From NCBI GenBank assembly GCA_016794485.1, contig JAEUHV010000523.1:1-34564 (forward strand): DNA of 34,564 nucleotides, read 5' to 3'. Source of the DNA: Planctomycetota bacterium. GTDB lineage: Bacteria > Planctomycetota > UBA1135 > UBA2386. This document shows, in pieces, positions 12,862-28,464 of this stretch. Under the pieces are notes generated by a model. The model was not told the origin of the DNA and made no database searches. It worked only from the letters and a program-made list of their open reading frames with translations. The position numbers were made by a program, and so were the translations under genes. Each line of letters starts with the position of its first letter. Positions within the stretch are counted from its first letter, which is position 1.

Positions 12862-13227
12862 TCAGGCGCGCAACGCGTTGGCGAAGCCGATCGACTCGGC
12901 CGCGATCAACAGCACGACGATCGCCTGCACCACGTGGCCGAGCCCGCGCGGCAGTTCGCGCAGCAGCAACGCGGTGACCCCGAACATCGCCAACGTCACG
13001 ACTGCGCCTACGACGAAGAACCACGCATCGTCGAGGTTGCACAAGACCGGCACCACGATGCCCGGCACGAGCGGCAGGCACAGCAGGTAGGTCGTCTGGC
13101 AGTGGCTGCACTCGTGCAGCATGCCGGTGACCACGGGTACCAGGACCGGGATCCACAACGTCGCCGCAGCGCGCACCATCGCACTACGCCATGCGAGGCC
13201 GAGTTCGGCAGCAGGCGCCGTGTCCAT
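12862..13227 (-). CDS. Small membrane protein, unknown function
   Basis: This 121-residue protein has about four hydrophobic helices (20-38, 48-62, 68-90, 98-118) and an HECSHC cluster (residues 38-43) between the first two, which could bind a metal or heme. I recognise no family. Its ATG shares one base with the stop codon of the SGNH hydrolase gene (TGATG at 13225-13229), so it is probably the last gene of the operon that begins upstream with nagB or with the GH3 fusion gene. Confidence 0.65.
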   Translation of the reverse strand: MDTAPAAELGLAWRSAMVRAAATLWIPVLVPVVTGMLHECSHCQTTYLLCLPLVPGIVVPVLCNLDDAWFFVVGAVVTLAMFGVTALLLRELPRGLGHVVQAIVVLLIAAESIGFANALRA

Positions 13228-14147
13228 CACTTCGCCCCGCCCTTGTCCTTGCCCGCGGGTGCCGCAGCCGCCTTCGTCGCCGCTTCCTGCAAGGCTTCGA
13301 CGTCTGGACCTGCCCCGCACGCGTCGACGAACTGGTCCAGCGTCCACTTCTGGCCGCGCAACGGATGGCCGTCGGGGAACTGCGCCGCCAGCGTGTCCTG
13401 CAGCGAGTAGCCGAGGAACGCCATGCCGAGCCGGTTCGCGTGCAGCCGATCGCCCTGCAGCAACGACCCGGGCGACGCGCGCAGCTTGCCGGCCGCGAGC
13501 GGCAGGTCGACGCCCTCGTCCTTCATCGTGCGGACCAGCGCCGCCAGCGGCACGACCTTCAGGTTCGGGTTCTGCTGCGCGAACGCGGCGAGCCGTTCGT
13601 TCAGCTTCGCGAGCACTTCCTTCTTCGGCACCCACGAGGCGCGCAGCATGCGCGGCGCGGCCCCGCGCATGTCGGCGAGATCGCCGACCACCACCGGCAC
13701 ACCGAGGCTCGCAACCAATGCGAGTCCCTTCTCGAACTTGGCCGAACGCGCGGCGGCCTCGTCGCCGGCCACCGGGCCGTAGGCGAACCAGAACAGGAAG
13801 TCGACCGCGACCACGACGTCCGCCTTCTGCTTCTTCGCACCCTCGACCTGGCGCGTGCCGTTGCCTTCGGCGTCGAGGAACAGCTGGGCCATGTCGAGCG
13901 GGTTGTGCGTGCTGGCTCGGGCGTGCTCGCCGCACCAGGCCTTGAGCACGTGCTGCATCGTGACCGATTCGCCCTGCTCGCCACCGGTCAGCGGTCCGTC
14001 TTCGAACCCGCCGCTCACCGACGCGCCGATGACGTGCAGTCGCGTCTTCTTCGTCGCCTTCTCGGGAGCCGCCTGGTCCTGGCCGATGACGACGCCGGCC
14101 GCGAGCACGGCCAGCAGGAACGAACCGATGCGGATGCCGATCTTCAT
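13227..14147 (-). CDS. Secreted SGNH/GDSL-type hydrolase
   Basis: This 306-residue protein has a signal peptide (hydrophobic 8-20, cleavage near VIGQ) and an SGNH hydrolase fold. Block I is GASVSGGF (S43 or S45 as nucleophile) and block V is DRLHANRLG with the Asp-x-x-His pair. Between them DFLFWFAYG and VVVGDLADM fit blocks II-III loosely; the asparagine of block III is not clear. The C-terminal 40 residues are Ala/Lys-rich. It begins 10 bp after the GH3-serine hydrolase gene and overlaps the next gene by one base, so the three are likely cotranscribed. SGNH enzymes are often carbohydrate or peptidoglycan O-acetylesterases; that role fits the neighbours but is inference. Confidence 0.8.
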   Translation of the reverse strand: MKIGIRIGSFLLAVLAAGVVIGQDQAAPEKATKKTRLHVIGASVSGGFEDGPLTGGEQGESVTMQHVLKAWCGEHARASTHNPLDMAQLFLDAEGNGTRQVEGAKKQKADVVVAVDFLFWFAYGPVAGDEAAARSAKFEKGLALVASLGVPVVVGDLADMRGAAPRMLRASWVPKKEVLAKLNERLAAFAQQNPNLKVVPLAALVRTMKDEGVDLPLAAGKLRASPGSLLQGDRLHANRLGMAFLGYSLQDTLAAQFPDGHPLRGQKWTLDQFVDACGAGPDVEALQEAATKAAAAPAGKDKGGAK

Positions 14148-14157
14148 GCGTGCGACT

Positions 14158-16929
14158 CTACCGCAGCGCCGCCAGCACCGCGTCGTGCACGGCGCGCCGG
14201 ACCGCAGTGATCTTGTTGTTGACCCGCGTCGGATGCACGCGGTTGGTCAGCAACACCACGCACAGGTCGTGGCGCGGGCAGCACCACAACGACGTGCCGG
14301 TGAAGCCGGTGTGGCCGAACGTGCCCGCGGGCACGTTCGTGCCGGCCCAGCCGCTCGCCAGCATCTGGAAGCCGAGGCCACGGGACCGGTCGGCCGAGAT
14401 CCCGGCCGGGCGCGTGGCGAGTTCGACCAGTTCGCGCGGCAGCACGCCGCGGCCGCCTCCGAGCAGGGTCACGCCGTACTCGAGCACGTCGGCGCCGGTC
14501 GCGAACAATCCGGCGTGCCCCGAGATGCCGCCCATCGCGAACGCGTTCTCGTCGTGTACCAGGCCGCGCACGATGCCACCGCGGGCGTCGTCGCGCTCGG
14601 TCGGCGCGGCCCCCGCCACCGGCGTGCCGGTGGTCGGCGCGAACAACGCGCCGCGCATGCCGAACGGGGTGCACACCTCCCGCTGCACGAAACGATCGAA
14701 CGGTTCGCCGGAGCACGCCTCCACCACCGCCATGAGCAGCACGAAGCCGAGGTCGCTGTAGGTCGGTCCCGTGCCGGGCTCGTACATCAGGCCCTCCTTG
14801 GCCGCGGCGTCGACGATCGCCGCCTTGCCGGACAGCGTGCGGTAGTAGCGTTCGTACGCCGGCAGGCCGCCGTCGTGCGCGAGCAGATGGCGCACGGTGA
14901 CCTTGTCCTTGCCCGTGCCGGCGAACGCGGGCACCCACTTCTGCACCGGATCGTCGAGCGACAACTTGCCGGTGGCGACGAGCCGCAACACCGCCGGTGT
15001 CGTCGCGCACACCTTGGTCAGCGACGCGAGGTCGTAGCGCGTGTCCGGCCCGACCGCCGGGGCGTCGGCTTCGTAGCCGAGCCGACCGACCGCGAGGTCG
15101 ACGAACGTCGCACCGCGCCGCGCCACGAGGCACCGCGCCCCCGGGAACGCCCCGTCGGCGATCGCCTGGTCGAGCAGCCCCTGCAATCGCGCCGGCAGTT
15201 CGGCCGCGAGTTCGGCGCGTTCCGGATCCGCGGTCGCCGCGGCGTAGATCGACGCCCCGCTGCCTGCCGCCGCGACCCCGGGGATCGAGACCGGCAGGCG
15301 CCCCGTCACTGGACTCTGGCCGCGCAAGGCAGCGGCGGCGGCACGTTCGGTCCGCTCCGTCGCGACGAACGCACACAAGTACGTGTCGACCAACGGCAGC
15401 TGCTGCACCAGGTACGGGTTGCCGAACGACACCGCGACGACCCGCTGCTCTTCGCGCAACGCCGCGAACACCGGCGCCAGCACCGCCGGCATCGCCACGC
15501 CGCCGCTGCTCTCGCGCACCTTGGCGTGCAACGCCAACACGACGCACTTCGCCGCCGCGACCTCGGCGGCGAGGGCCGCGACCTGTTCCGCCGTGCTGCT
15601 GCCCGACGCGCGCACCGCCTTGCCACCGAGCGGCGCCAGCACCTGCGCGAACGCCTGGCCATCGCCCTCGTCCTTGTCGAGCAACGTCACCAGCAGCGGT
15701 GCGGCCGCGGCATCCGCGTGCAGCGGCAGCAGGCCGCCGCGGTCGCGCACCAGCACGAGGCCGCGTTCGGCGATGCGGTCGGCGACCTGCTGCGATTCGC
15801 GGGTACCGAGATGCTGGCGCCAGTCCACGGCGAGCTTGCCGCCCCCAGCGAGCAGGCCGACCTTGGCCTTCGCGCGCAGGATGCGCAGCACGGCGTCGTC
15901 GAGGCGCGCCATCGGCACGCGCCCGCTGTGCACCGCGTCGACCACCGCCGCGCGCGCCGCCAGCGCGTCTGGCGGCATCAGCAGCACGTCGGCGCCCGCC
16001 AACAGCGCGCGCACCGCGACCTCGGCCGGCGGGAACGCGTTCTGCACGCCCTTCATCTCGAGCGCGTCGGTGACGACGAGGCCGGTGAAGCCGAGTTCGT
16101 CGCGCAACACGCCGCCGAGGATCTTCTTCGACAGCGTCGCGGGAACGTCGCGTTCTTCGCCGAGGCCCGGCACGGCGAGATGGCCGGTCATCACCGACTC
16201 GAGACCTTCCCTGCTCGCCTGCGCGAACGGCACCAACTCGACCGAACGCAACCGCGCGCCGTCGCCGGGCACGGTCGCGAGCGCCAGGTGCGAATCGCTG
16301 TCGACGTCGCCGTGGCCGGGGAAGTGCTTGCCGCACGCGAGCAGGCCGGCACTGCGCACGCCGCGCGCGAATGCGCTGCCGAGACGAGCGACGAGCTGCG
16401 GGTCCTCGCCGAAGCTGCGCACGTTGATGATCGGGTTCTGGGGGTTGCTGTTCACGTCGAGCACCGGGGCGAACACCCAGTGGAAGCCGAGCGCCTTGGC
16501 TTCCTCCCCGGTCACGCGGCCCATCGCCTCGGCCAGCGCGGCCGAACCGGTGGCGCCGACCAGCATCTGGTTGCCGAGTTCGGTGGCGCCCTGCAGTCGG
16601 AACCACACGCCCCCTTCGAAGTCGCCGGCGAGCAGCAGCGGGACCTTCGCGGCGGCCTGGAGCTTCGGCACGAGTGCCGCCGCGTCGTCGACGGTGCCGA
16701 GGCTGAGGATCACGCCGCCAAGGCCGGCGTCGCGCACCTGGGTCAGCAGCTTGTCGTGGTTGGAAGCACCGTCCTTGCCGTCGGTGCGCGACAGCGACCA
16801 CGCCATGAACAACTGGCCGGCCTTCTCCTGGACGGAGAGTCCGGCGAGCAATTCGGCGGCGGGGTCCTGCGCGTGCAGCGGCAGGGCCGACAGGACGAGG
16901 GCGGGAACGGCGGCGAGGATGCTGCGCAC
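14158..16929 (-). CDS. nagZ: Secreted GH3 beta-N-acetylglucosaminidase (NagZ) fused to AmiE-like serine hydrolase
   Basis: This 923-residue protein begins with a signal peptide (1-20). Residues about 25-360 are a GH3 NagZ domain: KHFPGHGD (201-208), the catalytic dyad D212 and H214 in SDSH, and nucleophile D288 in VVTDAL. A GH3 C-terminal domain (about 385-550) follows. Residues about 575-923 are a class C beta-lactamase-like hydrolase: S636-x-x-K639 (SLTK), Y724-S-D in place of Tyr-x-Asn, and H873-T-G. In Bacillus subtilis, secreted NagZ removes GlcNAc from muropeptides and the beta-lactamase-family AmiE then releases the peptide from MurNAc; here both are in one chain. It starts with GTG, 7 bp after TAGGCT (16937-16942, minus strand). 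The amidase role is inferred from AmiE. Confidence 0.9.
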   Translation of the reverse strand: MRSILAAVPALVLSALPLHAQDPAAELLAGLSVQEKAGQLFMAWSLSRTDGKDGASNHDKLLTQVRDAGLGGVILSLGTVDDAAALVPKLQAAAKVPLLLAGDFEGGVWFRLQGATELGNQMLVGATGSAALAEAMGRVTGEEAKALGFHWVFAPVLDVNSNPQNPIINVRSFGEDPQLVARLGSAFARGVRSAGLLACGKHFPGHGDVDSDSHLALATVPGDGARLRSVELVPFAQASREGLESVMTGHLAVPGLGEERDVPATLSKKILGGVLRDELGFTGLVVTDALEMKGVQNAFPPAEVAVRALLAGADVLLMPPDALAARAAVVDAVHSGRVPMARLDDAVLRILRAKAKVGLLAGGGKLAVDWRQHLGTRESQQVADRIAERGLVLVRDRGGLLPLHADAAAAPLLVTLLDKDEGDGQAFAQVLAPLGGKAVRASGSSTAEQVAALAAEVAAAKCVVLALHAKVRESSGGVAMPAVLAPVFAALREEQRVVAVSFGNPYLVQQLPLVDTYLCAFVATERTERAAAAALRGQSPVTGRLPVSIPGVAAAGSGASIYAAATADPERAELAAELPARLQGLLDQAIADGAFPGARCLVARRGATFVDLAVGRLGYEADAPAVGPDTRYDLASLTKVCATTPAVLRLVATGKLSLDDPVQKWVPAFAGTGKDKVTVRHLLAHDGGLPAYERYYRTLSGKAAIVDAAAKEGLMYEPGTGPTYSDLGFVLLMAVVEACSGEPFDRFVQREVCTPFGMRGALFAPTTGTPVAGAAPTERDDARGGIVRGLVHDENAFAMGGISGHAGLFATGADVLEYGVTLLGGGRGVLPRELVELATRPAGISADRSRGLGFQMLASGWAGTNVPAGTFGHTGFTGTSLWCCPRHDLCVVLLTNRVHPTRVNNKITAVRRAVHDAVLAALR

Positions 16930-17009
16930 GCGGCGAAGCCTACGACGGAGCGGTGCTCTCGTCGCTGTTCAGGTACCTCGACAACGCCCGAGCCGATGCG
17001 CCGGTGCGC

Positions 17010-18119
17010 CTACTGCGGACTCCCGTGGGTCCAGGTGAAGAGGCTCCCCGGGATCGCCCATTCGAACGCGGCCTCTTCGACGGTCACTCGCAGCAGCCCC
17101 CACGTCCGCGTCTCGACCGTCCGAGGATGGAGGCCAAACCAATCACTGCGCCGCATGGAGTCGCCATGGAGTTCGGAAGTCTCGAACGACGAGAACTGGA
17201 CCGCTTCTCCTGGAGTTGCCACGGCCAGCGTGGTCCTCGGCATCGTTCGGCGCAGCGATCCATGGTCTTCTCGGTACAGCGTCACCCGACCTTCGCCACC
17301 AGGTTGGTTCGAGAACGCGACGGAGACGTGGGTCTTGCCGGCCGTCCACTTCCAAACGTCCTCGAGTTCCTTTGGCTCGTCGGTCGCGACCTTTCCGGAC
17401 GCATCGAGCCACCCGAGGTCCAGCTCCACTTCGGACCACACGACTACTTCGTCTTCCGGTGCCCGTCTGTCCGGAAAGGCCGGTGGACCAGAACCACCGG
17501 CGACCTCCGTGAATCGCGCTGCCGGATCGCAGCCGAACCCGTAGGGAACCAGAAACCAAACCGTGCGATCGCTCATGCGAACGCGAATCCAATGGTCGCC
17601 CAGGTGGTCCGGCAGAAAGTCGAACGTGCTGATCAGGCTGCAGTAGGCACCGCCCATGTGTAGACCCCAGCCTTGGAACCTGGCTTCGCGGTCGTGTGAT
17701 GCCTGCACTACGTTCCGGCGCGAGCGGATCTCGGCGTGAACCGGTCCAGGTCCCGGTGGGAGATCGTCGAGATCTTCCGAGGCCGACTTGGCCGAGAAAT
17801 TGAGTCTGAAGCGCAGGTGGCCATTCTCGATCCGTAGGTCCGGACTGGCAGCACCCCACGCTGTGGCAATGCTCGGATACACCACCCGCTCCCATCCTCT
17901 CGGCGCCGCGAACACGTCCACCGGCACGGGTGCCTCGACTTCCTTGGGCCACTGTGCTTTCGGCCACCATGCGTCGCCGCTGCTGGCCGACGGCACAGGT
18001 CGCACCACAGGTGCGGAACGCGCCGAAGGACCACACGAAGGCCCAACGAAGGCCAACCACACCCATGGGACGCACGCGAGCCGAAGCACCGGCCACGTTG
18101 CTCCTCGGCGCCCCTTCAC
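17010..18119 (-). CDS. Hypothetical secreted protein coupled to nagB
   Basis: Starting at GTG 18119, this is a 369-residue protein. The GTG overlaps the nagB stop as GTGA, which decides the start. A basic then hydrophobic N-terminus ending near VGPSCG suggests export, possibly as a lipoprotein, although the lipobox is poor. The remainder is rich in Trp and beta-type segments (WGLHMGGAY, GDHWIRVRM, WFLVPYGFGCD) and resembles a beta-sandwich, perhaps a carbohydrate-associated domain; I cannot name a family. Its codon use is visibly less GC-rich at third positions than its neighbours, hinting at a different origin. It lies 80 bp upstream of the GH3 fusion gene. Confidence 0.7.
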   Translation of the reverse strand: MKGRRGATWPVLRLACVPWVWLAFVGPSCGPSARSAPVVRPVPSASSGDAWWPKAQWPKEVEAPVPVDVFAAPRGWERVVYPSIATAWGAASPDLRIENGHLRFRLNFSAKSASEDLDDLPPGPGPVHAEIRSRRNVVQASHDREARFQGWGLHMGGAYCSLISTFDFLPDHLGDHWIRVRMSDRTVWFLVPYGFGCDPAARFTEVAGGSGPPAFPDRRAPEDEVVVWSEVELDLGWLDASGKVATDEPKELEDVWKWTAGKTHVSVAFSNQPGGEGRVTLYREDHGSLRRTMPRTTLAVATPGEAVQFSSFETSELHGDSMRRSDWFGLHPRTVETRTWGLLRVTVEEAAFEWAIPGSLFTWTHGSPQ

Positions 18120-18874
18120 GCGCCAACGAGCCCCGACTGCAGCAGGCTCGCCGCTTCGCGATCGAGCAGCACGAGCACGTTGCCGTGCGTGCGCACCACA
18201 CTCGCCGGACAGGTTGGCGCCACCGGCCCCTGCAGCATCGCCGCGACCGCGGGCGCCTTCGCCTTGCCGAACGCACACAGCACCAACCGCTTCGCCGCCA
18301 GGATCGTCGCGATGCCGGACGTCACCGCGCGCGTCGGCGGCTCCGCCGGCCGGAACCGCGCCCGCGCGTCTTCGCGCGTCGTCTCCGCCAGCGTCGTCCC
18401 GTGGAAGCCGCTGTCGAACGGCGTGCCCGGCTCGTTGAACGCGAGGTGCCCGTTGCGTCCGATGCCGAGGAACTGCAGCTGCACCCCGCCCGCGCGCTGC
18501 AACCGCTGCTCGTGCGCCCGCAGCGACGCCGGCGCGTCGTCGTGTGGCACCGGGAAGAACGTGCCCTTCGCCAGCATCGCCAGCAGATGCGGGCAGGCGC
18601 TGCCGAGTTCGTGCACCATGCCGCCCTTCTGGTCGGGTGCATAGCCGAGGTATTCGTCGAGGTGCGTCGCCAGCAGGTTGCCCGCCGCGGGTATCCGGCC
18701 GGCGCCGAGTTCGTGGCCGAGCGCCTGCAGGAACGCCGTGAACGTTCCGCCGGTGGCGAAGCCGAGCAGCGGGCTCTTCGACGAGGTGAGCAGCGTGCGG
18801 ACTTCGTCGAGCAGCAGCGGCACCGCGGCAGCGGCGTTGGCGAGGATCCGGACCTCGGGCGGGGACGACTTCAT
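18116..18874 (-). CDS. nagB: Glucosamine-6-phosphate deaminase
   Basis: NagB converts glucosamine 6-phosphate to fructose 6-phosphate and ammonia, the entry of amino sugars into glycolysis. The 252-residue length is near the short bacterial form. Motifs: FATGGTFTAFLQAL (phosphate loop), THLDEYLG (with the catalytic Asp/Glu pair), the signature GIGRNGHLAFNEPG with its catalytic histidine, and TSGIATILAAKRL. Related 6-phosphogluconolactonases share the fold but lack this signature. The ATG at 18874 gives the normal N-terminus. It heads the run of minus-strand genes leading to the NagZ-AmiE fusion, which fits use of GlcNAc and MurNAc after MurQ and NagA action. Cytoplasmic. Confidence 0.93.
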   Translation of the reverse strand: MKSSPPEVRILANAAAAVPLLLDEVRTLLTSSKSPLLGFATGGTFTAFLQALGHELGAGRIPAAGNLLATHLDEYLGYAPDQKGGMVHELGSACPHLLAMLAKGTFFPVPHDDAPASLRAHEQRLQRAGGVQLQFLGIGRNGHLAFNEPGTPFDSGFHGTTLAETTREDARARFRPAEPPTRAVTSGIATILAAKRLVLCAFGKAKAPAVAAMLQGPVAPTCPASVVRTHGNVLVLLDREAASLLQSGLVGA

Positions 18875-18957
18875 TGCAGGCCCGGACTTTGGCGCGGCCA
18901 CCGCCGCCCGGCAAGACCATGCGCGAGACTGGCTGCGCCCGAGTCCCGGGCATTGGG

Positions 18958-19206
18958 CTAGTTCTTGCGGACCGCTCGATGCTTGCCGAGCATGGTGCGA
19001 AGGTCGCCACGGAAGGGCAGGGTGCGACCGTGGATCGCATCGTCGAATCCAGCGAGGATTGCCTGGCGAAGGGACTCGGCGTCCATGCGTTCCTTCTTTT
19101 CGCGGATGAGCGCGAGGACGAACTCCCCCGGAGTGGCGAACAAGGTCCCCTTGCCGGAGTTCTCGTCCAGGAACGCGTGCAGTTCGTCTGTCAGCGAAAC
19201 ACGCAT
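18958..19206 (-). CDS. ParD/CopG-like antitoxin, no partner toxin visible
   Basis: This 82-residue protein begins MRVSLTDELHAFLDEN, followed by GTLFATPGEFVLALIREKKER: the ribbon-helix-helix pattern of ParD-type antitoxins (one DNA-binding strand, then two helices). The C-terminal half would normally wrap a ParE toxin, but no ParE-like frame precedes or follows; nagB starts 83 bp downstream. A GTG at 19218 is an alternative start, but the promoter-like TTGACT-17-TGTCGT places the transcription start between the two, favouring the ATG at 19206. It may be an orphan antitoxin or a small regulator of its own or neighbouring promoters. Confidence 0.75.
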   Translation of the reverse strand: MRVSLTDELHAFLDENSGKGTLFATPGEFVLALIREKKERMDAESLRQAILAGFDDAIHGRTLPFRGDLRTMLGKHRAVRKN

Positions 19207-19216
19207 CGGTCGGGTC

Positions 19217-19245
19217 ACGACATCTCCGATGGTCGCCCAAGTCAA
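19217..19245 (-). promoter_or_regulatory. Putative promoter of the ParD-like gene
   Basis: On the minus strand TTGACT (19245-19240) is followed after 17 bp by TGTCGT (19222-19217), 10 bp upstream of the ATG at 19206. Ribbon-helix-helix antitoxins usually bind their own promoter, so this is also where an operator would be sought. Confidence 0.45.
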
Positions 19246-19359
19246 CTTCGCTGACGCATGGGGCCAAGATCGCCTCCCACCTGCCCATCGCACGCCCCCC
19301 CGAAGACACCTGGGGTGTGCACGGCCCCAGGTCCCCGCATCGGTGATCGAAAAGACCCG

Positions 19360-20337
19360 ATGCAGTCCATGGCACCGATCCGCATGCTGTGCCCGATGCA
19401 CCTCCCCACCGGTTGGCTCGACCGCCTGCGCAGCCTGCGCCAGCGCTTCCTCGAAGACGACCACATCGGCATCGCGTTGCCCGACTACTGGCGCGACGAC
19501 CTCGACCTCGTCGCCTACGACGCCATCCCGGCGGCGCGCATCGGCTGGAAGTGGGACGCCGCCCTGGCCGAAGCGGCCGACCGCGGCCTCGTGATCCCGG
19601 CCCACGCAACCGTGCTCGACTTCGGCTGCGGCACCGGCATCGCCGCGCGCCGCTTCCTGCACCGTTTCGCCGCGAGCGAGGTGCTGTGCCACGACCGTTC
19701 CGCCCGCGCCCGCAACTTCGCGGTGAAGCGCCTGCGCGGCGAACATCCGAAGGCGAAGGTGCGCGCCGTGACCAACCCCGGCGCCGACGGCGCCGAGTTC
19801 GACGTGCTGCTGGTGAGCCATGTGCTCGGCGAACTGGACGAGTCCGGCCGCACGGCCCTTCTGGCGCTCGCCCGCCGCGCGCGCGTCGTGCTGTGGGTAG
19901 AACCCGGCAGCCGCACCGCCGCCCGTGCTTTGGCGACCGTGCGCGACACGCTGCTCGGTCCGCTGCACCCGATCGCGCCGTGCCCGCACGCCGGGAAGTG
20001 CCCGACGTTGGCGAACGACCACGACTGGTGCCACTTCTTCGCCGAGCCGCCGCCCGAGGTGTTCACCACCGGCGACTGGGTGAAGGCCGCGCGCGAACTC
20101 GGCATCGACCTGCGCGCGTTGCCGTATTCGTTCCTGGCCCTGGCGACCGAACCCACGGCGGTCGCCATGCCACTGCACCGACTGCTCGGCCGCGCCGAGG
20201 TGTCGAAGTTCGACGCTCGCCGCCTCGCGTGCAGCGCCGACGGCCTGCGGCCCTGCACGGTCACGAAGCGTGCCCAACCGGAGCTGTGGCGCCGCATCAA
20301 GAAGGACCCCGGCGGCCTGCGGGTGCTGCCCGACTGA
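19360..20337 (+). CDS. Rsm22-like ribosomal small-subunit methyltransferase family protein
   Basis: This 325-residue protein has a class I methyltransferase fold with SAM motif I VLDFGCGTG (85-93) and LVSHVLGEL as the post-II loop. A cysteine cluster CPHxxxCP followed by DWCHFF (C208, C214, C224) is the hallmark of the Rsm22/METTL17 family, where it binds an iron-sulfur cluster and the protein assists small-subunit ribosome assembly. Bacterial members are mostly uncharacterised and true methyl transfer is doubtful. Several ATGs lie close together (19360, 19369, 19384, 19396); I chose the first, since the open frame to 19258 has no family similarity. It diverges from the ParD-like gene. Confidence 0.85.
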   Translation: MQSMAPIRMLCPMHLPTGWLDRLRSLRQRFLEDDHIGIALPDYWRDDLDLVAYDAIPAARIGWKWDAALAEAADRGLVIPAHATVLDFGCGTGIAARRFLHRFAASEVLCHDRSARARNFAVKRLRGEHPKAKVRAVTNPGADGAEFDVLLVSHVLGELDESGRTALLALARRARVVLWVEPGSRTAARALATVRDTLLGPLHPIAPCPHAGKCPTLANDHDWCHFFAEPPPEVFTTGDWVKAARELGIDLRALPYSFLALATEPTAVAMPLHRLLGRAEVSKFDARRLACSADGLRPCTVTKRAQPELWRRIKKDPGGLRVLPD

Positions 20338-20343
20338 CCCGGT

Positions 20344-20372
20344 TTGGCACCGGCGGAATCCCGTCCTACAGA
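20344..20372 (+). promoter_or_regulatory. Putative pirin promoter
   Basis: TTGGCA (20344-20349), 17 bp, TACAGA (20367-20372), which ends 8 bp before the ATG at 20381. The predicted transcript would start at the start codon, and no Shine-Dalgarno is present. Confidence 0.5.
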
Positions 20373-20380
20373 CGTCGCCC

Positions 20381-21244
20381 ATGAAACGCGTGCAGCAGCT
20401 TCGGCACGGCCAGGCCATGCACTGGGTCGGCGACGGGTTCCCGGTGCGCACGTTCTTCTCGTACGCGGAACCGCTGCCGTTCAGCCCGTTCCTGCTGCTC
20501 GACTACGCGGCGCCGAACACGTTCGCCAAGGGCACGAAGCCGCGCGGCGTCGGCCCGCATCCACACCGTGGATTTGCGACCGTGACGTTGGCGCTGCAAG
20601 GCGAGATCGCCCACCGCGACTCGGCCGGCCACGGCGGAACGATCGGCCCGGGCGACGTGCAATGGATGACCGCGGCGCGCGGCGTCGTGCACGAGGAACT
20701 GCACAGCGACCGCTTCACGAGCGACGGCGGCGTGCTCGAGATGGTGCAGCTGTGGGTCAACCTGCCGGCCCGAGCGAAGATGACGCCGCCGAGCTACCAG
20801 GACCTGCGCGCCGACGCGATCCCCACCGTGGCACTGCCCGGCGAAGCTGGCAGTGCGCGCGTGGTCGCCGGCACGTTGCTCGGCGCCACCGGCCCGGCGC
20901 GCACCGTGACGCCGGTGGAGCTCTGGGACGTGACCTTGCGCGCCGGTCGGCCGACGGTGCTGCCGTTCCGCCAGGGCCACACCACGCTGCTGCTGGTCAC
21001 GCGCGGCGAAGTCGTGGTCGCGGGCGAGGACGTCGTGCCGGCGAACGCGCTCGCCGTGCTCGACCGGTTCGGCACGAAGCTGGTGCTGCAGGCGAAGGGC
21101 GGCGACGCGCGCGTGCTCGTGCTCGGTGGCGAACCGATCGACGAGCCGGTGGTCGGCCACGGCCCGTTCGTGATGAACACGTGGCCCGAGATCCGCCAGG
21201 CGGTCGACGACTTCCAGTCGGGCCGCATGGGCAGGCTCGAGTAG
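20381..21244 (+). CDS. Pirin family protein (bicupin, quercetinase-like)
   Basis: This 287-residue protein has the pirin N-terminal cupin with metal ligands in HPHRGF and a following His in ALQGEIAHRDS, the diagnostic IGPGDVQWMTAARGVVHEE segment, and the pirin C-terminal cupin with LLLVTRGEVVVAG. Pirins bind one iron; some are quercetin 2,3-dioxygenases, others redox-sensing regulators. Length is typical. It follows the Rsm22-like gene by 43 bp but has its own promoter-like sequence. The physiological role here is unknown. Confidence 0.93.
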   Translation: MKRVQQLRHGQAMHWVGDGFPVRTFFSYAEPLPFSPFLLLDYAAPNTFAKGTKPRGVGPHPHRGFATVTLALQGEIAHRDSAGHGGTIGPGDVQWMTAARGVVHEELHSDRFTSDGGVLEMVQLWVNLPARAKMTPPSYQDLRADAIPTVALPGEAGSARVVAGTLLGATGPARTVTPVELWDVTLRAGRPTVLPFRQGHTTLLLVTRGEVVVAGEDVVPANALAVLDRFGTKLVLQAKGGDARVLVLGGEPIDEPVVGHGPFVMNTWPEIRQAVDDFQSGRMGRLE

Positions 21245-21268
21245 CTCGGCGCCGACGGCAGCGGGCGG

Positions 21269-22441
21269 TCAGACCTTCCACACGAGCCCGCGCCGGAACA
21301 GGACCGCGAGCACCGCGTACCAGCCGAGGATCCAGACGAGGCCGAAAGCAAGCGACGCCAGCTTCGGGTCGCCGATCGGTTCGAGCAGGCAGTTGGCGAA
21401 GAACCACTCCTTCACCGGGACCTGCTTGCCGTCCTGCACCACCGTGACCAGCGAGCCGACGATGCGGCCGAGCAGCGCACTGCCGACGAAGACCAGCAGC
21501 GCGTTCACGCCGTAGACCTGCAGCGGATGCGCCCACTTCGTCCACGCCTTCTGCTCGAACGCCCACACGCACAGGCCGAGCCCGCAGGTCGCGACGCCGG
21601 CGGTCCACACCGCGTAGCTCGCGGTCCACAGCGGCTTGTTGAGCGGCAGGAACCAGCTCCACACCGCCCCCGCCAGCAGCCACAGCACGCCCCATCGCAA
21701 CAGCCCCGCGACGCGGGCCGCCGGGTCCACGTTCGCGCGCAGGAAACGGCCGACCTGCACGCCGAACAACGCGGTCGCCAGTGCGGTCATCGTGCCGAGC
21801 AGGCCTTCCGGGTCGTACTTGCCCTTCACCCAGATGTGCTCGCCGAACAACGTGCGGTCGAGCCAGCCCTGCAGCGTGCCCAACGGCTCGTCGAGGTTCG
21901 GCATGCCATGCCCCGGCACCGGCACGCACGTGCTCACGAGCCAATGGCCGAACAGGCAGCCGAGCAGCACGTTGCGCTGCGTGCGCGCCGAGGTGAACAG
22001 GAACAGCAGCGCCGCAAGCCCGTAGCAGATGCCTATGCGCTGCAGGACGCCGGGGAAGCGCACGCCGAGCATCGGCGCGAACCAGTCCTTGCCGTCGGCG
22101 AACGTCACCAGCGGAAACACCGACGGCAGCATGCCGAGCAGCACGAGCCACAGGACCCGGCGGCCGATCGCCGCGACCAGCGGACCACGCGGCGCTCCGG
22201 CTTCGACCTTGCGCGCCAGAGCCGGCACGATCGCGACCCCGGCACAGAACAGGAACGTCGGGAACACCAGGTCGGTCGGCGTACAGCCGTGCCAGTCGGC
22301 GTGGCGCAGCGGTTCGTACTGGTACTTCGAACCCCAGCGGCCAGGGTTGTTCACCAGGATCATCGCCGCGATCGTGAGGCCGCGCAGCGTGTCCAGCCCG
22401 AGCCACCGCGACGGGGCCGGCACCGCGGCGTGGTCGCTCAC
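21269..22441 (-). CDS. DUF5009 / NagX-like membrane protein (HGSNAT-like acyltransferase family)
   Basis: This 390-residue protein has about ten membrane helices. The N-terminal signature [19 protein letters not shown] and the following [19 protein letters not shown] with conserved histidines are those of DUF5009, related to heparan-alpha-glucosaminide N-acetyltransferase, which moves an acetyl group from cytosolic acetyl-CoA across a membrane to glucosamine. Proteobacterial NagX in GlcNAc-use regulons belongs to this group. The start is GTG at 22441, overlapping the murQ stop as GTGA (22441-22438), so translation is coupled to murQ. That link suggests an amino-sugar substrate such as glucosamine or muramic acid, but transport or acylation direction is inference. 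Confidence 0.88.
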
Positions 22442-23343
22442 GGCGCCGCCAGCGCGGCGCGCACGCTGCCGTCGTGGGTGAACAGCAGGGTGCGGGCGAC
22501 GTGCGCGGCGACCTTCCTCTTGTGCGCGACGATCGCCGCCTTCACTTCGCCGTCGCAACCCGCCAGCAGTTCCTTCGCGACCGCGGCGGCGCAGCCGGCG
22601 GCCTGTTCGACGATGCGCACGGCGCGAGCCTTCAGCTTGTCGTTGGTCGCCTGCAGGTCGACCATCAGGTTGCCGTAGACCTTGTGCAACCGCACGAACG
22701 CGCCGGTGCTGAGCATGTTCAACACCATCTTCGTGGCGGTGCCGGCTTTGAGCCGCGTGCTGCCGGTCAGCACTTCGGGCCCGGTGACGACTTCGATCGG
22801 CAGCTCGGCGGCGTTGGCGACGGCACTGCCGCGGTTGCACACGACCGCGATGGTGCACGCTCCGGTCGCGCGCGCGGCCTGCAGGGCACCGACCACGTAC
22901 GGCGTACGGCCGCTGGCGGCGATGCCGACGACGCAGTCTTTCGCCGAAAGCCCGATCGCGCGCAGATCGGCGGCCCCGAGTGCCTCGTTGTCCTCGGCAC
23001 CTTCGACTGCTTTGACGAACGCGCCCGGCCCGCCGGCGATCAGGCCCACGACCTGTTCGGGCGAGGCCGAGAACGTCGGCGGGCACTCGACCGCGTCGAG
23101 CACACCGAGCCGACCGGAAGTGCCGGCCCCGCAGTAGACGAGGCGTCCACCCTTGTGCATGCGCTGAGCGATCGCGTCGATCGCCGCGGCGATGCGCGGC
23201 AGTTCGTGCCGAACCGCTTCGCCGACCAGCCGGTCCTCGTCGTTCATCACCGCCACCAGTTCGGCGGTGGACAGCGCGTCGAGGTCGACGGTGCGTGGGT
23301 TCCGGGCCTCGGTCGTGAGCGACGACAGGTCGATGCGGTTCAT
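22438..23343 (-). CDS. murQ: N-acetylmuramic acid 6-phosphate etherase
   Basis: MurQ cleaves the lactyl ether of MurNAc 6-phosphate, giving GlcNAc 6-phosphate and D-lactate, the defining step of MurNAc catabolism. The 301-residue length matches the family. Motifs: [13 protein letters not shown] (69-80), DAVECPPTF with catalytic E86, [11 protein letters not shown] (the second glutamate is E114 or E117), [11 protein letters not shown], and [17 protein letters not shown]. The start at 23343 gives [15 protein letters not shown], the normal N-terminus; the ATG nine codons upstream does not. It is coupled by GTGA overlap to the DUF5009 gene. A MurNAc kinase (MurK/NagK type or AnmK) is required upstream in the pathway and is not in this window. 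Confidence 0.97.
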
Positions 23344-23409
23344 GCGTGGGCCTCGCGAGCATGTTGGCAAAGCGGCGCGCCGAACGCGAGTCCAACACTG
23401 GCATCCGCT

Positions 23410-24384
23410 TCAGCGGCGCAGCACGGCGTCGAGCGAGGGCGCGTCGAGTACTGTGTCGAACCAGGCGTCGAGCTCGGCGAGGCTGGCCGCCGCCACTCGC
23501 TGGCTCGCCGCCGCCGGCAGCGGGCCGAATCGCCGCTGCAGCAGGTGCAACAAGGCTTCGGCCTTGCCCTCGGCCTTGCCCTCGGCCTTGCCTTCCATTC
23601 TGCCCTGCAATCGGCCTTCGAGACGGAGCTTGTTGGCGGTGGTCATGCGCGTTGGTTCGTAGTGGTCCAGGTGTTTCGCGAACGCCATGTGCAACTGCTC
23701 CTCGGTCACTTCGGTGACTTCGAGAACATAACACGCGATCGCATCGAGAGCGTCGTCGGGGTGCGGCGGGCCTTCGTCGCTGGCCATCGCCCGGAGCGGG
23801 GTCGCCCACCGATCCAGTGCCGCCAACGCCGCCGCCGGATCGTCCGTGGGCAGATGCCCGAGGCACAGCAGGGTCAGCTGTGCGAGTGGCAGGAGGCGCG
23901 GATCCAACAGGTCTGACTCGGTCGTGGCGCCGAGTTCGTAGACGACGGCCCGCAGCTGCGGCTGCAGGTCGGCGAGCGCCTGATCCAGTTCACCGGTGGC
24001 GGTAGAGGGTGGCGCCGCCCGCGGCCGCTGCAGCAGGACCACCGGCACCACCCACGTTGCCTCGCCTGGGCCGTGCTTCCACAGCACGCGGCGCAACAGA
24101 ACCACGTAGCGCAACTGTTGCGGCTCCCAGATGTCGGACGACCCGCTGTGGTGCTCGAGCACGAACCGCACGGAACGGGAATCGACGCGCAACCGCGCCT
24201 GCAGCGCGACGTCGAGGTCGTTGCGGCGCAGACGCGGCCCCACGAGCCGGTCTTGGGCCAACGTGAGCCCTGGCCAGTCGACCGCGGCCGCCAATACCGC
24301 TGGAAGACAGACCCGTAGCCACCCGGCGGCCAGCCGAGGGTGCCGAAACGTGAACTGGAACAGTCGATCGTGTGGTGCCTGCAC
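23410..24384 (-). CDS. Rpn/PD-(D/E)XK nuclease family protein (transposase_31-like)
   Basis: This 324-residue protein starts at GTG 24384 with QAPHDRLFQFTFRHP, the entry of the Rpn/PDDEXK family. The active-site strands are visible as RRNDLDVAL and VRFVLEHHSGSS; the last normally reads E-x-Q/K, here E-H-H. A helical middle and a GKAEGKAEGKAE coiled segment follow, then a DUF4351-like end (LLHLLQRRFGPLP). Rpn proteins are DNA nucleases that stimulate recombination and have been linked to phage defence; they are often multicopy and variable. It lies 66 bp upstream of murQ on the same strand but has no obvious pathway link. Confidence 0.85.
   Translation of the reverse strand: MQAPHDRLFQFTFRHPRLAAGWLRVCLPAVLAAAVDWPGLTLAQDRLVGPRLRRNDLDVALQARLRVDSRSVRFVLEHHSGSSDIWEPQQLRYVVLLRRVLWKHGPGEATWVVPVVLLQRPRAAPPSTATGELDQALADLQPQLRAVVYELGATTESDLLDPRLLPLAQLTLLCLGHLPTDDPAAALAALDRWATPLRAMASDEGPPHPDDALDAIACYVLEVTEVTEEQLHMAFAKHLDHYEPTRMTTANKLRLEGRLQGRMEGKAEGKAEGKAEALLHLLQRRFGPLPAAASQRVAAASLAELDAWFDTVLDAPSLDAVLRR
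23558..23593. repeat. Three 12-bp tandem repeats inside the Rpn-like gene
   Basis: Three consecutive units close to TCGGCCTTGCCC encode repeated Glu-Gly-Lys-Ala on the minus strand. The third unit differs by one base. Because the unit is a multiple of three, slippage would change linker length without breaking the frame. Confidence 0.9.
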
Positions 24385-24540
24385 TCGTCACCTCCACGGA
24401 AAGGGGACTGGCGGCACTCGATTCGGGCAGGAAATGACGAGAAATTGCGCCAGACGCCGCACTACCGATCCAACCGGCGCCGACGACCGCGCCACGTTCG
24501 CGGTGGCCGCGGGTGGAACGCGCGGCTACAAGGCCGGCGC
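24385..24540. promoter_or_regulatory. Divergent intergenic region before the symporter
   Basis: These 156 bp separate the Rpn-like gene (minus) from the symporter gene (plus). TACAAG (24527-24532) ends 8 bp before the symporter ATG and may be its -10 box; no convincing -35 or Shine-Dalgarno is visible. A relatively AT-rich patch (GAAATGACGAGAAATTG, 24432-24448) is unusual for this DNA and could hold a regulator site. I see no coding sequence. Confidence 0.35.
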
Positions 24541-26049
24541 ATGTCGATCGCCCCGCTCGACCTCGTCCTCCTCTGTATCTACATGGCCGGCACGGTCGCG
24601 TTCGGCCTGTGGATGGGGCGCGGGCAGAAGACCGCGAACGACTACCTGCTCGGCGGCCGCGACCTGCCGTGGTGGGCGCTGCTGCTGTCGATCGTCGCGA
24701 CCGAAACCAGCACCGTGACCTTCCTCAGCGTGCCGGCGGTCGCCTACTCGGCCCAGTTCGGCACCGGCGACCTGCGCTTCCTGCAGCTGCCGTTCGGCTA
24801 CCTGGTCGGCCGCGCCATCGCCGCACTGTTCCTGGTACCGCTGTACTTCAAGGGGGAACTGTTCACCGCCTACGACGTGCTGCGCGTGCGCAGCGGTCCG
24901 GCGGTGCGAACGCTGGCGAGCGGCATGTTCCTCACCACGCGCACGCTGGCCGACGGGTTGCGGCTGTACCTGACCGCAGTCGTGCTGCAGATGATGTTCG
25001 GCTGGTCGTTGTGGCTGTCGGTCGCAGTCACGGGCCTGGGCACCGTCGCCTACACGGTGATCGGCGGCATCAAGGCCGTGGTGTGGACCGACGTGCTGCA
25101 GTTCGTCGTCTACATGGTCGGTGCGATCGTCGCCCTGGCGGTCATCGGCGGCAGCGTCGACGGTGGTCTCGGCGGGATCGTCGACAGCGCAGCCGCCGCC
25201 GGTCGCCTCCGGGTGTTCGACTTCGGCCTCGACTTCGGTGCCACCTACACGTTCTGGGCCGGCCTGCTCGGCGGCGCCGTGCTGTCGATCGGCAGCCACG
25301 GCGTCGACCAGATGATCGTGCAGCGCTTCCTGTCGGCCCGCTCGCAACACGACGCGCAGAAGGCACTGCTGTGGAGCGGTCCGCTGGTGCTGGTGCAATT
25401 CGCGCTGTTCCTGCTGATCGGCCTCGGCCTGTCGGCCTTCTACACGCAGCACCCCCCACAGGCTGCGTTCCGGAAGGGCGACCACGTCTTCGCCGACTTC
25501 ATCGTGCACCACCTGCCGCACGGGCTCGTCGGGCTCGTGCTCGGCGCCTTGTTCTCGGCGGCGATGTCGACGCTGTCGAGTTCGCTGTCCGCTTCCGCCG
25601 GCGCGCTGGTGAACGACTTCCTGCTGCCGGCCACCGGGCACGCCCCGGACAGTCCGTTCGCGCTGCGGGCGGCGAAGGTCGCCACGGTGCTGTTCTGCGG
25701 CCTGCAGATCGCCGTCGGCATCGTCGACTACGGCGACGACAGCCCGATCGTCGGCAAGGTGCTCGCGATCGCGACGATCACCACCGGCGTGATCCTCGGT
25801 CTGTTCGTGCTGGCGCTGCTGCCGCGGCGATCGCCGACGGCGTCGCTGGTCGGGCTGTGCGGCGGGCTCGCGGCGATCGTCGGCATCGTGTTCGTGCTGC
25901 CCCTGATCGACCTCGACGCGGCGAAGCCCGATGTGCAGGCCTTCGCCCTGGCATGGCCGTGGCACGGCATCGTCAGTTCGTCGGGCACGATCGTCGTGGG
26001 ATTCGCGGCGTCGTGGTTCGTCGCGCCTGACGCGAACGAACGAACGTGA
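24541..26049 (+). CDS. Sodium:solute symporter (SSS family), candidate MurNAc/amino-sugar importer
   Basis: This 502-residue protein has about 13 membrane helices and the SSS pattern: NDYLLGGRDLPWWALLLS near the N-terminus, ATETSTVTFLSVPA in the second helix, YTVIGGIKAVVWTDVLQ (about 175-190), SHGVDQMIVQRFLSA, and LGALFSAAMSTLSSSLSASA, which carries the sodium-site Ser/Thr residues. The substrate is not readable from motifs. It lies 35 bp upstream of two NamZ-type genes and close to murQ. In Tannerella forsythia an SSS-type protein (MurT) imports MurNAc beside murK and murQ, so MurNAc or a MurNAc-disaccharide is the leading guess. Sialic acid and other sugars are alternatives. Confidence 0.9.
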   Translation: MSIAPLDLVLLCIYMAGTVAFGLWMGRGQKTANDYLLGGRDLPWWALLLSIVATETSTVTFLSVPAVAYSAQFGTGDLRFLQLPFGYLVGRAIAALFLVPLYFKGELFTAYDVLRVRSGPAVRTLASGMFLTTRTLADGLRLYLTAVVLQMMFGWSLWLSVAVTGLGTVAYTVIGGIKAVVWTDVLQFVVYMVGAIVALAVIGGSVDGGLGGIVDSAAAAGRLRVFDFGLDFGATYTFWAGLLGGAVLSIGSHGVDQMIVQRFLSARSQHDAQKALLWSGPLVLVQFALFLLIGLGLSAFYTQHPPQAAFRKGDHVFADFIVHHLPHGLVGLVLGALFSAAMSTLSSSLSASAGALVNDFLLPATGHAPDSPFALRAAKVATVLFCGLQIAVGIVDYGDDSPIVGKVLAIATITTGVILGLFVLALLPRRSPTASLVGLCGGLAAIVGIVFVLPLIDLDAAKPDVQAFALAWPWHGIVSSSGTIVVGFAASWFVAPDANERT

Positions 26050-26084
26050 TGCAGTCCGCCGGCCCGCGGTAGCATCCGCGCCCC

Positions 26085-27278
26085 ATGCGGTGCCTTCTCG
26101 TCGCGACGTTGCTGTTGCCGTGCCTCGGCACGGCCCAGTCCCCCTCGCCCGACGTGCGCACCGGCGTCGACGTGCTCGCCGCGAGCGGCTGCGCCGAGCT
26201 GCGCGGACGCAAGGTCGGCCTGATCACCAACCACACCGGTCGCACCGCCGACGGGCGGCGCACCGTCGACGTGCTCGCCGCCGCCGAGGACGTGACGCTC
26301 GTCGCGCTGTTCTCGCCCGAGCACGGTTGGGAGGGCAAGGTCGACGAGAAGGTCGGCGACACGCGCGACACCGCGACCGGACTGCCGGTGTATTCGCTCT
26401 ACGGCGCGACGCGCGTCCCCACCGAAGCGATGCTCGCCGGCGTCGACACGCTGGTGTTCGACATCCAGGACATCGGCTGCCGCTTCTACACCTACCTGTC
26501 GACGATGCGGAACTGCCTCGAGGCCGCCGGCGCGCGCGGCCTGCGCTTCGTCGTGCTCGACCGACCGAACCCGATCGGCGGCGTGCGCACGGAAGGCCCC
26601 GTGCTGGCGAAGGACCGCCAGGACTTCGTCGGCGCGCACCGCATCCCCCTGCGGCACGGCCTCACCGCCGGCGAACTGGCGCGCATGGTCGCCGGCGAAG
26701 ACGGTCTGCAGGTCGACCTGCACGTCGTGCGCTGCGAAGGCTGGCAACGCGCCGACCTGTGGGACGCAACCGGTCTACCGTGGGTCAACCCGTCGCCGAA
26801 CATGCGTTCGCTGACCCAGGCGCTGCTCTACCCGGGCATCGGCCTGCTCGAAGGCACCAACCTGTCGGTCGGACGCGGCACCGACACTCCGTTCGAAGTG
26901 CTCGGCGCGCCGTGGTGCGACGGCCTTGCGCTGGCGAAGCGGCTGCGCGCGGCGAAGCTGCCCGGCGTCACGTTCGTCCCGGTGGCGTTCACCCCGACCG
27001 CGAGCAAGTTCCGCGGCGAGGCCTGCTCGGGGGTCAACGTCGTGGTCACCGACTGGGCCACGTTCGAGCCGGTGCGCACCGGCATGCACGTCGCGTGCGC
27101 CCTGCGCGCGCTGCACCGGGACGCGTGGGACGTGCAGAAACTCGACTGGCTGCTCAAACACGCGCCGACGCACGATGCGATCCTCGCCGGCACCGCGGCC
27201 GACGCGATCGTGGCGACGTGGGCGAAGGAACTCGACCTGTTCCGGTTGCGCAAGAAGCCGTTCCTGCTCTACGAGTGA
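26085..27278 (+). CDS. namZ: Secreted DUF1343 protein, NamZ-type exo-beta-N-acetylmuramidase
   Basis: This 397-residue protein has a signal peptide (1-17) then a complete DUF1343 (GH171) domain: GRKVGLITNHTGR, LFSPEHGWEG with E79, VYSLYG, VFDIQDIGCRFYTY, DRPNPIGG, RHGLTAGELA, NPSPNMRSLTQALLYPG and LEGTNLSVGRGTDTPFE. NamZ (YbbC) of B. subtilis releases terminal MurNAc from muropeptide-derived glycans after NagZ; the PEHG glutamate lies in the proposed active site. TAGCAT (26070-26075) lies 9 bp before the ATG. It follows the symporter and precedes a second, leaderless DUF1343 paralogue by 10 bp, so the three are probably one operon. Confidence 0.92.
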   Translation: MRCLLVATLLLPCLGTAQSPSPDVRTGVDVLAASGCAELRGRKVGLITNHTGRTADGRRTVDVLAAAEDVTLVALFSPEHGWEGKVDEKVGDTRDTATGLPVYSLYGATRVPTEAMLAGVDTLVFDIQDIGCRFYTYLSTMRNCLEAAGARGLRFVVLDRPNPIGGVRTEGPVLAKDRQDFVGAHRIPLRHGLTAGELARMVAGEDGLQVDLHVVRCEGWQRADLWDATGLPWVNPSPNMRSLTQALLYPGIGLLEGTNLSVGRGTDTPFEVLGAPWCDGLALAKRLRAAKLPGVTFVPVAFTPTASKFRGEACSGVNVVVTDWATFEPVRTGMHVACALRALHRDAWDVQKLDWLLKHAPTHDAILAGTAADAIVATWAKELDLFRLRKKPFLLYE

Positions 27279-27288
27279 GATCGAACGC

Positions 27289-28464
27289 ATGCCCGCCGCC
27301 ATCCACTTCGGTCTCGAGATCGCCTGCAACCAACCACCCGACGTGCTGCGTTCGGCGCGCACGTTCGGCCTCTTGTGCAACCAGGCCTCGGTCGATCGCC
27401 AGTTCCGCCACGCCGCCGACGTGCTCGACAAGCGCTATCCGGGCAAGCTGAAGGCGATCTTCGGGCCACAGCACGGGCTGTGGTCGACCGAACAGGACAA
27501 CATGATCGAGACCGGCCACGCGCGCCACGCGCGGCTCGGCGTGCCGGTGCACAGCCTCTACAGCGACACCAGGAAGCCGACGCAGGCGATGCTCGACGGC
27601 CTCGACCTGCTCGTCGTCGACCTGCAGGACGTCGGCACTCGCGTCTACACGTACGTCTGGACGCTGACCTACTGCCTGGAGGCGTGCGCGCAGAAAGGGA
27701 TCCCGGTGCTCGTGCTCGACCGGCCGAACCCGCTCGGTGGCCTCGTCGCCGAAGGCCAGGCTCTCGACCTGCGCTGGCAGAGCTTCGTCGGCAGGGCCCC
27801 GCTGCCGATGCGCCACGGCTTGACCATGGCCGAGCTGGCGCGCTGGTGCAACGACGTCATGGGCCTGTCGGCGGACGTGCGCACCGTGCCGATGCAGGGC
27901 TGGCGCCGCAGCATGTCGTGGCCAGATCTTGGCCGCGCGTGGGTGCCACCGTCGCCGAACCTGCCCCGCTGGGAAGGTGCCTTGGTGTATCCGGGCCAGG
28001 TGCTGCTCGAAGGCACGAACCTCAGCGAAGGCCGCGGTACGACGACGCCGTTCGAGCAGTTCGGGGCGCCGTTCGTCGATCCGTGGCAGCTGCTGGCCTT
28101 GGCTGCCGCGCACGACGTGCGCGGGGTCGCGCTGCGCGCGGTGCAGTTCGAGCCCACGTTCCAGAAGTGGCAGGGCAAGGCCTGCGGCGGGCTGTTCGTG
28201 CATCCAACGGACGCCGAGACGTTCCGGCCGTACCGCACGACGCTGACGCTGCTGCGCGCGATCCGCGAACTGTGGCCCAACCAGTTCGCGTGGCGCGAGC
28301 CGCCGTACGAGTACGAAGCCACGCTGCAACCGATCGACATCCTGGCCGGCAGCCCGGCAGTGCGCGAGTTCGTCGATGGCGAACGGCCGCTCGACCAGCT
28401 CGACGCGCTGGCGGCCCCGCCGCCGGACTGGTGGCAACGCGTGCGCCGCACGCTGCTCTACTGA
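27289..28464 (+). CDS. Second DUF1343 (NamZ-like) protein, no signal peptide
   Basis: This 391-residue protein is a full-length DUF1343 homologue: TFGLLCNQASV, FGPQHGLW, QDNMIETG, VHSLYSDTRKPT, VVDLQDVGTRVYTY, DRPNPLGG, PSPNLPRWEGALVYPG and LEGTNLSEGRGTTTPFE. It lacks a signal peptide, unlike its neighbour, and the PEHG motif reads PQHG (Q61). I believe the PQHG and QDNM combination marks a separate subfamily, not decay. A cytoplasmic NamZ-like enzyme could split imported MurNAc-containing disaccharides. T. forsythia has two NamZ enzymes with different substrate preferences, a useful parallel. The ATG at 27289 is chosen because the frame upstream overlaps the first paralogue. Confidence 0.88.
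   Translation: MPAAIHFGLEIACNQPPDVLRSARTFGLLCNQASVDRQFRHAADVLDKRYPGKLKAIFGPQHGLWSTEQDNMIETGHARHARLGVPVHSLYSDTRKPTQAMLDGLDLLVVDLQDVGTRVYTYVWTLTYCLEACAQKGIPVLVLDRPNPLGGLVAEGQALDLRWQSFVGRAPLPMRHGLTMAELARWCNDVMGLSADVRTVPMQGWRRSMSWPDLGRAWVPPSPNLPRWEGALVYPGQVLLEGTNLSEGRGTTTPFEQFGAPFVDPWQLLALAAAHDVRGVALRAVQFEPTFQKWQGKACGGLFVHPTDAETFRPYRTTLTLLRAIRELWPNQFAWREPPYEYEATLQPIDILAGSPAVREFVDGERPLDQLDALAAPPPDWWQRVRRTLLY

Follow-up and report, generated by a model that had tools for sequence, protein, structure and literature searches.

A predicted two-compartment salvage locus for peptidoglycan sugars in a planctomycete genome

We analyzed a DNA stretch of 34,564 nucleotides from a Planctomycetota bacterium (assembly GCA_016794485.1), hereafter called the window, which comprises the entire contig JAEUHV010000523.1 of a draft genome of 5.9 Mb that is 83% complete. 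The window contains a cluster of genes that, with a probability of roughly 0.78, represents a catabolic system for the salvage of N-acetylmuramic acid (MurNAc) and N-acetylglucosamine (GlcNAc) that is split over 2 compartments. An earlier, sequence-only reading had proposed a peptidoglycan-sugar salvage locus in a probable planctomycete, with genes for NagB, a secreted NagZ-AmiE fusion, MurQ, a NagX-like protein, a sodium:solute symporter (SSS), and 2 NamZ-type proteins. All of these genes were present, with scores above or near the curated thresholds, and the planctomycete origin was confirmed in that the nearest named records were Planctomycetota metagenome genomes. The salvage function was borne out in outline, both by the clustering of the genes within the family and by a related cluster in other planctomycetes. 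The genes, their families, the export signals, and the family-wide clustering were observed directly, whereas the enzymatic activities are predictions.

According to the proposed model, the NagZ-AmiE fusion would take off the terminal GlcNAc and the stem peptide outside the cytoplasm, where an SGNH esterase and the NagX-like protein may normalize the acetylation of the sugars (by O-deacetylation and by N-acetylation of glucosamine-type sugars) and NamZ1 would free the MurNAc residue at the chain end. The SSS symporter would import MurNAc, and probably also the MurNAc-GlcNAc disaccharide. In the cytosol, NamZ2 may split the imported MurNAc-glycoside, a BadF-type (MurK-like) kinase encoded elsewhere in the genome would generate MurNAc-6-phosphate (and GlcNAc-6-phosphate), MurQ would strip off D-lactate, and NagA, also encoded elsewhere, would together with NagB yield fructose-6-phosphate.

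Conservation of the cluster

The clustering that had been anticipated in relatives was observed around the murQ gene. Within 12 kb of this gene in 23 loci from the same family, we found genes for SSS in 22 loci (always in divergent orientation), NamZ1 in 16, NagX and NagB in 15 each, NagZ in 13, AmiE and NamZ2 in 11 each, and the SGNH esterase in 7, all of which are counts depressed by contig ends. The remaining neighbors in the window, that is, the genes for FtsY, an O-antigen-ligase-like protein, Rsm22, and pirin, were located near only 2 to 5 of the family murQ genes. By random expectation, 2 given genes would be located within 12 kb of each other in well under 1% of genomes of about 5 Mb. 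The gene for the SSS protein was located next to and divergent from murQ not only in 22 of the 23 family loci but also in all 10 loci with MurQ from other planctomycetes.

NamZ was identified in 27 of 32 genomes of the family, while in the order-level sample of 101 genomes NamZ was found in 54 and a true MurQ (over the cut-off) in 52. The distribution of NamZ across the phylum was patchy (56 of 294 genomes).

The arrangement of the genes differed among the relatives. The order murQ-(nagX)-nagB-nagZ/amiE-SGNH was found on a single strand in L033, L039, L046, L058, and L063, with no other gene of the window in between, and the order of the murQ arm in L050 was identical as far as the contig end. 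The split of the locus into pieces is therefore mainly a trait of the genus to which the window belongs. The view that the genes form a neighborhood and not one operon holds for this genome, whereas several relatives contain murQ-(nagX)-nagB-nagZ/amiE as one same-strand run. In the 10 loci from other planctomycetes, a kinase-murQ unit was divergent from SSS-namZ1-namZ2, and a related cluster was located on the chromosomes of TBK1r (L124) and K23_9 (L126), which we take to be cultured planctomycetes. The AmiE-like β-lactamase domain was fused to NamZ1 in L103, L104, L106, L107, L108, L111, L114, and L122, unlike the NagZ-AmiE fusion in the window.

Enzymes of the minus-strand arm

The MurQ protein scored 398.9 bits against TIGR00274 (curated cut-off 302) and was similar to PDB 4s12 (E 4e-96). 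The NagB protein scored 44.7 bits against PF01182 (cut-off 27) and also matched the NCBIfam model for glucosamine-6-phosphate deaminase, with a score under the nagB equivalog cut-off. It resembled NagB of Bacillus subtilis (2bkv) along most of its length (E 1e-36), with which it shared the motifs LDEY and GIGRNGHxxFNEPGT. The NagZ-AmiE fusion contained matches to PF00933 (276.6 bits, 4e-82) and PF00144 (2.5e-62), and its translation showed a signal peptide; the sequences of some relatives resembled lipoproteins. The motifs KHFPGHGD and VTDAL in the NagZ domain aligned with GH3 hexosaminidases, and the domain was similar to NagZ/YbbD of B. subtilis (3bmx, E 7e-62), with a score of 158.7 bits to the equivalog PRK05337, below the cut-off of 207. 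Given the known families, we predict with high confidence that NagZ, MurQ, NagA, and NagB have the activities that their names imply. The AmiE-like domain was assigned by its PF00144 fold family and an SxxK motif (SLTK), which makes a MurNAc-L-Ala amidase activity probable.

The best NCBIfam match of the membrane protein encoded next to MurQ was NagX (2.3e-43), but with 148.7 bits it missed the NF046061 equivalog cut-off of 480, and we therefore refer to the protein as NagX-like only. It scored 28.6 bits against HGSNAT_cat (cut-off 22) and contained an invariant D17xxR20 motif and an invariant His47, so that the score, the DxxR motif, and the catalytic His of the TmAT/HGSNAT superfamily were all found. 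The conservation of these residues fits a putative acyltransferase, and NagX has been proposed to N-acetylate periplasmic glucosamine (PMC9007349).

The SGNH esterase had no significant Pfam or NCBIfam match. An AlphaFold model (pLDDT 84, pTM 0.80) was most similar in Foldseek searches to PatB of Neisseria gonorrhoeae (1.5e-4), followed by other GDSL/SGNH esterases, and these E values near 1e-4 and TM-scores of roughly 0.4 to 0.6 support the fold of the model rather than the candidate substrate, which we infer. The motifs GAS43VSGG and D233-x-x-H236 were invariant in 7 sequences, in agreement with the catalytic Ser and Asp-x-x-His of the SGNH fold. Together with NagX, the esterase suggests that the cluster could handle acetyl-modified wall sugars, but the roles given to these 2 proteins are drawn from their genomic context and are tentative.

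Exported and cytosolic NamZ proteins

The NamZ1 and NamZ2 proteins both scored above the cut-offs for PF07075 (276 and 261 bits) and NamZ_C (PF20732; 158 and 153 bits), and NamZ1 was similar to PDB 4k05 (E 2.4e-75). Two NamZ-type proteins had been listed in the sequence-only reading, which was correct, but their division into 2 clades and 2 compartments had been missed, NamZ2 being cytosolic as judged from its sequence. A tree of 134 distinct sequences separated proteins with a PEHG motif from those with a PQHG motif without exception (support 0.999), and by this sequence comparison NamZ2 is a separate clade of the DUF1343/NamZ family. The PEHG motif was present in 60 of 60 NamZ1-type matches and the PQHG motif in 101 of 101 NamZ2-type copies; the sequence sets overlap in part, with some family genomes in both collections. 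The NamZ2 relatives were collected with scan patterns that omit the PQHG motif, and its count is therefore not a direct effect of the selection; the 80 loci represent the most similar ones. The Glu of the PEHG motif (Glu92), which we take from the NamZ literature to be catalytic, was present in NamZ1 and replaced by Gln in NamZ2. According to a simple signal-peptide rule, the NamZ1-type proteins either contained a signal peptide or followed an AmiE-like domain in a fusion, a few of them being unscored, while the NamZ2-type proteins had no export signal, barring 4 doubtful positives and 11 unscored sequences. The muramidase activity of NamZ1 is highly likely, as judged from its family.

Relatives of NamZ2 were also found in several other phyla. 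In Verrucomicrobia, the gene was located directly behind an SSS gene, with only a few bp between them; of 8 such genomes, 6 also encoded MurQ and all 8 encoded additional NamZ proteins, in each case elsewhere in the genome. In Deltaproteobacteria, a run of genes for GH3 NagZ-type, NamZ2-type, MurU-like, and AmgK-like proteins was found in L113 (35-4630), in L125 a NamZ2-type gene preceded a MurU-AmgK-like fusion by about 3.6 kb, and another was located directly before mpl in L139. The MurU-like and AmgK-like matches were under their equivalog cut-offs, whereas Mpl was over its own. The deltaproteobacterial neighbors tie the cytosolic clade to the recycling of peptidoglycan sugars by evidence that does not depend on the window.

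Uptake, phosphorylation, and deacetylation

The SSS protein scored 205.9 bits against TIGR00813 (cut-off 184) and was related to SMVT, NIS, and the bacterial SiaT (5nv9). Its genomic context points to a MurNAc-type sugar as the probable class of substrate. A SiaT-like carboxylate site was considered and rejected: Arg135 of SiaT was not conserved, and 2 other Arg residues of the stretch were conserved, from which we draw no conclusion.

The substrate of MurQ is MurNAc-6-phosphate, which is made by a phosphotransferase system (PTS) transporter during uptake and not by a sodium symporter, and the substrate of NagB is glucosamine-6-phosphate. The route therefore needs a kinase and NagA, neither of which was found in the window, and the locus is thus not complete, contrary to the impression from the sequence alone. 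Both were identified elsewhere in the same genome. A BadF-family frame of 313 codons on contig C223 had the MurNAc/GlcNAc kinase 8zo3 as its best PDB match (E 4e-16), and contig C433 encoded a NagA-like protein with 221 bits (cut-off 225.65). A gene for a BadF kinase was located near murQ in 8 of the 10 loci with MurQ from other planctomycetes, an adjacency that supports a role as MurNAc kinase; on family grounds, this activity is likely. AnmK was rejected as the missing kinase since it was found in 0 of the 34 family genomes, which fits a pathway for free MurNAc and not for anhydroMurNAc.

Layout of the window

The features of the cluster are listed in Table 1. The sequence-only reading had placed the locus at 12862-28464, of which the end coincides with that of namZ2, but the cluster starts at 13227 with the SGNH gene, which had not been listed, and 12862-13226 contained no gene of the system. 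The start of nagX overlapped the stop of murQ by 4 bp, and only 10 bp separated the SGNH gene from nagZ-amiE and namZ2 from namZ1.

Table 1. Genes of the predicted salvage cluster in the window
Feature	Coordinates	Strand	Remarks
SGNH-fold esterase, PatB-like fold	13227..14147	-	secreted; candidate sugar/peptidoglycan O-acetylesterase
nagZ-amiE fusion	14158..16929	-	exported; predicted GH3 N-acetylglucosaminidase and β-lactamase-fold AmiE-like domain
nagB, predicted glucosamine-6-phosphate deaminase	18116..18874	-	PF01182 and NCBIfam
nagX-like, putative membrane N-acetyltransferase	21269..22441	-	TmAT/HGSNAT superfamily
murQ, predicted MurNAc-6-phosphate etherase	22438..23343	-	TIGR00274
SSS sodium:solute symporter	24541..26049	+	TIGR00813; candidate importer of MurNAc or MurNAc-disaccharide
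namZ1, predicted GH171 exo-β-N-acetylmuramidase, PEHG type	26085..27278	+	exported; PF07075, PF20732
namZ2, GH171-family protein, PQHG type	27289..28464	+	signal-less (cytosolic); PF07075

Interspersed among these genes were an orphan open reading frame (17010-18089), an Rsm22-like methyltransferase, a pirin, and an Rpn-type gene. The orphan frame, which encodes about 359 amino acids between nagB and nagZ-amiE, had no Pfam or NCBIfam match and was absent from the loci of the relatives, and it was not counted as part of the system. The Rpn/YhgA-type recombination-promoting nuclease gene (23410-24384) was located in the divergent region between murQ and SSS, and looks like an insertion because this gap was only about 150 bp in the relatives L030 and L031.

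The namZ2 gene was followed by genes for a predicted membrane protein (28474-30501), an open reading frame at about 30641-32044 with no Pfam match, and a histidine kinase (32146-34305), an order also noted in several relatives (L030, L031, L044, L068). A Porphyromonas-type peptidyl-arginine deiminase family protein was encoded at 4195-6006. An Rfam search across the window gave no match, and a tRNA-Val (cac) called by ARAGORN at 9753-9838 on the minus strand lies within ftsY (9279-10202, plus strand) and is probably a false call.

Comparison with known systems

As in the murQ-murR-murP-amiE-nagZ-namZ (ybb) operon of B. subtilis, the genes are clustered, with NagZ, AmiE, and NamZ outside the cell and MurQ inside. 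The planctomycete locus differs in that a non-PTS symporter and a separate kinase replace MurP, in that NagZ and AmiE are fused, in the second, cytosolic NamZ, in the 2 divergent arms, and in the presence of NagB, NagX, and the SGNH esterase within the cluster. The proposed equality with this operon, function by function, was thus overstated: beyond the kinase and NagA, neither MurR nor MurP was found among the annotated proteins of the window.

The murTKQ system of Tannerella forsythia also combines non-PTS uptake, a BadF-type kinase, and MurQ, and the kinase and murQ are neighbors in the other planctomycetes, whereas in the genome studied here the kinase is unlinked to murQ and located on another contig. 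An SSS protein in place of a PTS transporter was indeed present, but its analogy to MurT is uncertain, since MurT is described within the same paper as a sodium symporter (introduction) and as a protein of the major facilitator superfamily (discussion; PMC5790795), and as a distant relative of NagX in another (PMC9007349). T. forsythia lacks MurA and MurB (PMC7670621), whereas a MurA over the cut-off was present in 30 of the 34 family genomes, which therefore very likely make their own wall; on this basis, an auxotrophy for MurNAc like that of T. forsythia was rejected.

The proposed step with a cytosolic NamZ2 has a precedent in the murP-mupG-murQ system of Staphylococcus aureus, in which MurP imports MurNAc-GlcNAc and the cytosolic muramidase MupG splits it before MurQ acts; unlike NamZ2, MupG is a DUF871 protein whose substrate is the phosphorylated disaccharide delivered by the PTS (PMC6262408). 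A likeness to the AmgK-MurU recycling of the Pseudomonas type was seen in some Deltaproteobacteria, where the NamZ2-type gene is located beside NagZ, MurU-like, and AmgK-like genes, whereas the window encodes the catabolic MurQ, and neither AmgK nor MurU was found in it.

Discussion

Several observations weigh against a salvage system of the proposed kind. AmiE-like domains are also found in esterases and D-Ala peptidases, the position in SSS aligned with Arg135 of SiaT is not an Arg, and neither the kinase gene nor that for NagA is linked to the locus in this genome. Furthermore, 8 of the 23 family loci had no NagX near MurQ and 16 had no SGNH, some of which is explained by contig ends, and 3 genomes (G010, G015, G048) retain SSS and MurQ without NamZ nearby. 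That sugar genes with no relation to each other came together by chance, as the interspersed Rsm22, pirin, and Rpn genes might suggest, is nevertheless extremely improbable given that the cluster recurs in more than 20 genomes and forms compact same-strand runs in relatives. It is also improbable that the NagX-like protein, as a relative of MurT, is the MurNAc transporter, with SSS carrying another solute: the distant relationship of NagX to MurT of T. forsythia (PMC9007349) and the overlap of its gene with murQ would suit such a role, but NagX was found neither in those 8 family loci nor in any of the 10 loci from other planctomycetes, which argues against NagX as the sole transporter, while SSS was present in 22 of the 23 family loci and in all 10 others; NagX also conserves DxxR and His47, the residues expected of an acyltransferase.

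The most vulnerable assignment concerns NamZ2, in which Gln replaces the Glu seen in NamZ1, 4k05, and 4jja. This invariant replacement would suit a binding protein or a protein that acts on a different sugar, for instance one that regulates the pathway, which we consider rather unlikely because the remaining pocket (DRPNP, RH, SPN, E-x-TN, RGT) is invariant across both clades, and because in 3 phyla its gene is accompanied by genes for peptidoglycan sugars or by that for the same SSS. The context slightly favors a cytosolic muramidase. There is about an even chance that the signal-less PQHG proteins constitute a distinct, uncharacterized cytosolic branch of GH171 in Planctomycetota, Verrucomicrobiota, and Deltaproteobacteria, which would free MurNAc from disaccharides imported by a symporter or feed AmgK/MurU recycling, as a counterpart of MupG that is independent of the PTS and has a changed candidate catalytic residue. 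Whether the cell recycles its own wall or feeds on other bacteria had both been suggested, and both are possible; gene content alone cannot separate them because they need the same enzymes. That the locus serves to re-import and catabolize periplasmic turnover products of the cell's own wall has a little less than even odds: the broad presence of MurA, the export of NagZ-AmiE and NamZ1, and the lipoprotein-like NagZ-AmiE of some relatives suit such periplasmic work, but the route through MurQ and NagB is catabolic, and the presence of SGNH and NagX hints at the handling of modified sugars of other origin.

The kinds of parts in this salvage system are already known, and the cytosolic PQHG clade is its most interesting point: the pair of an exported and a cytosolic NamZ, and the company of recycling genes that the clade keeps in other phyla, provide a defined enzyme question. 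The kinase-murQ / SSS-namZ1-namZ2 locus in TBK1r and K23_9 makes the system testable. Planctomycetes were long believed to be without peptidoglycan. A conserved locus for MurNAc catabolism indicates how a part of the Planctomycetota can reclaim or eat cell-wall sugars, and bears on how bacterial necromass is turned over in lakes and sediments.

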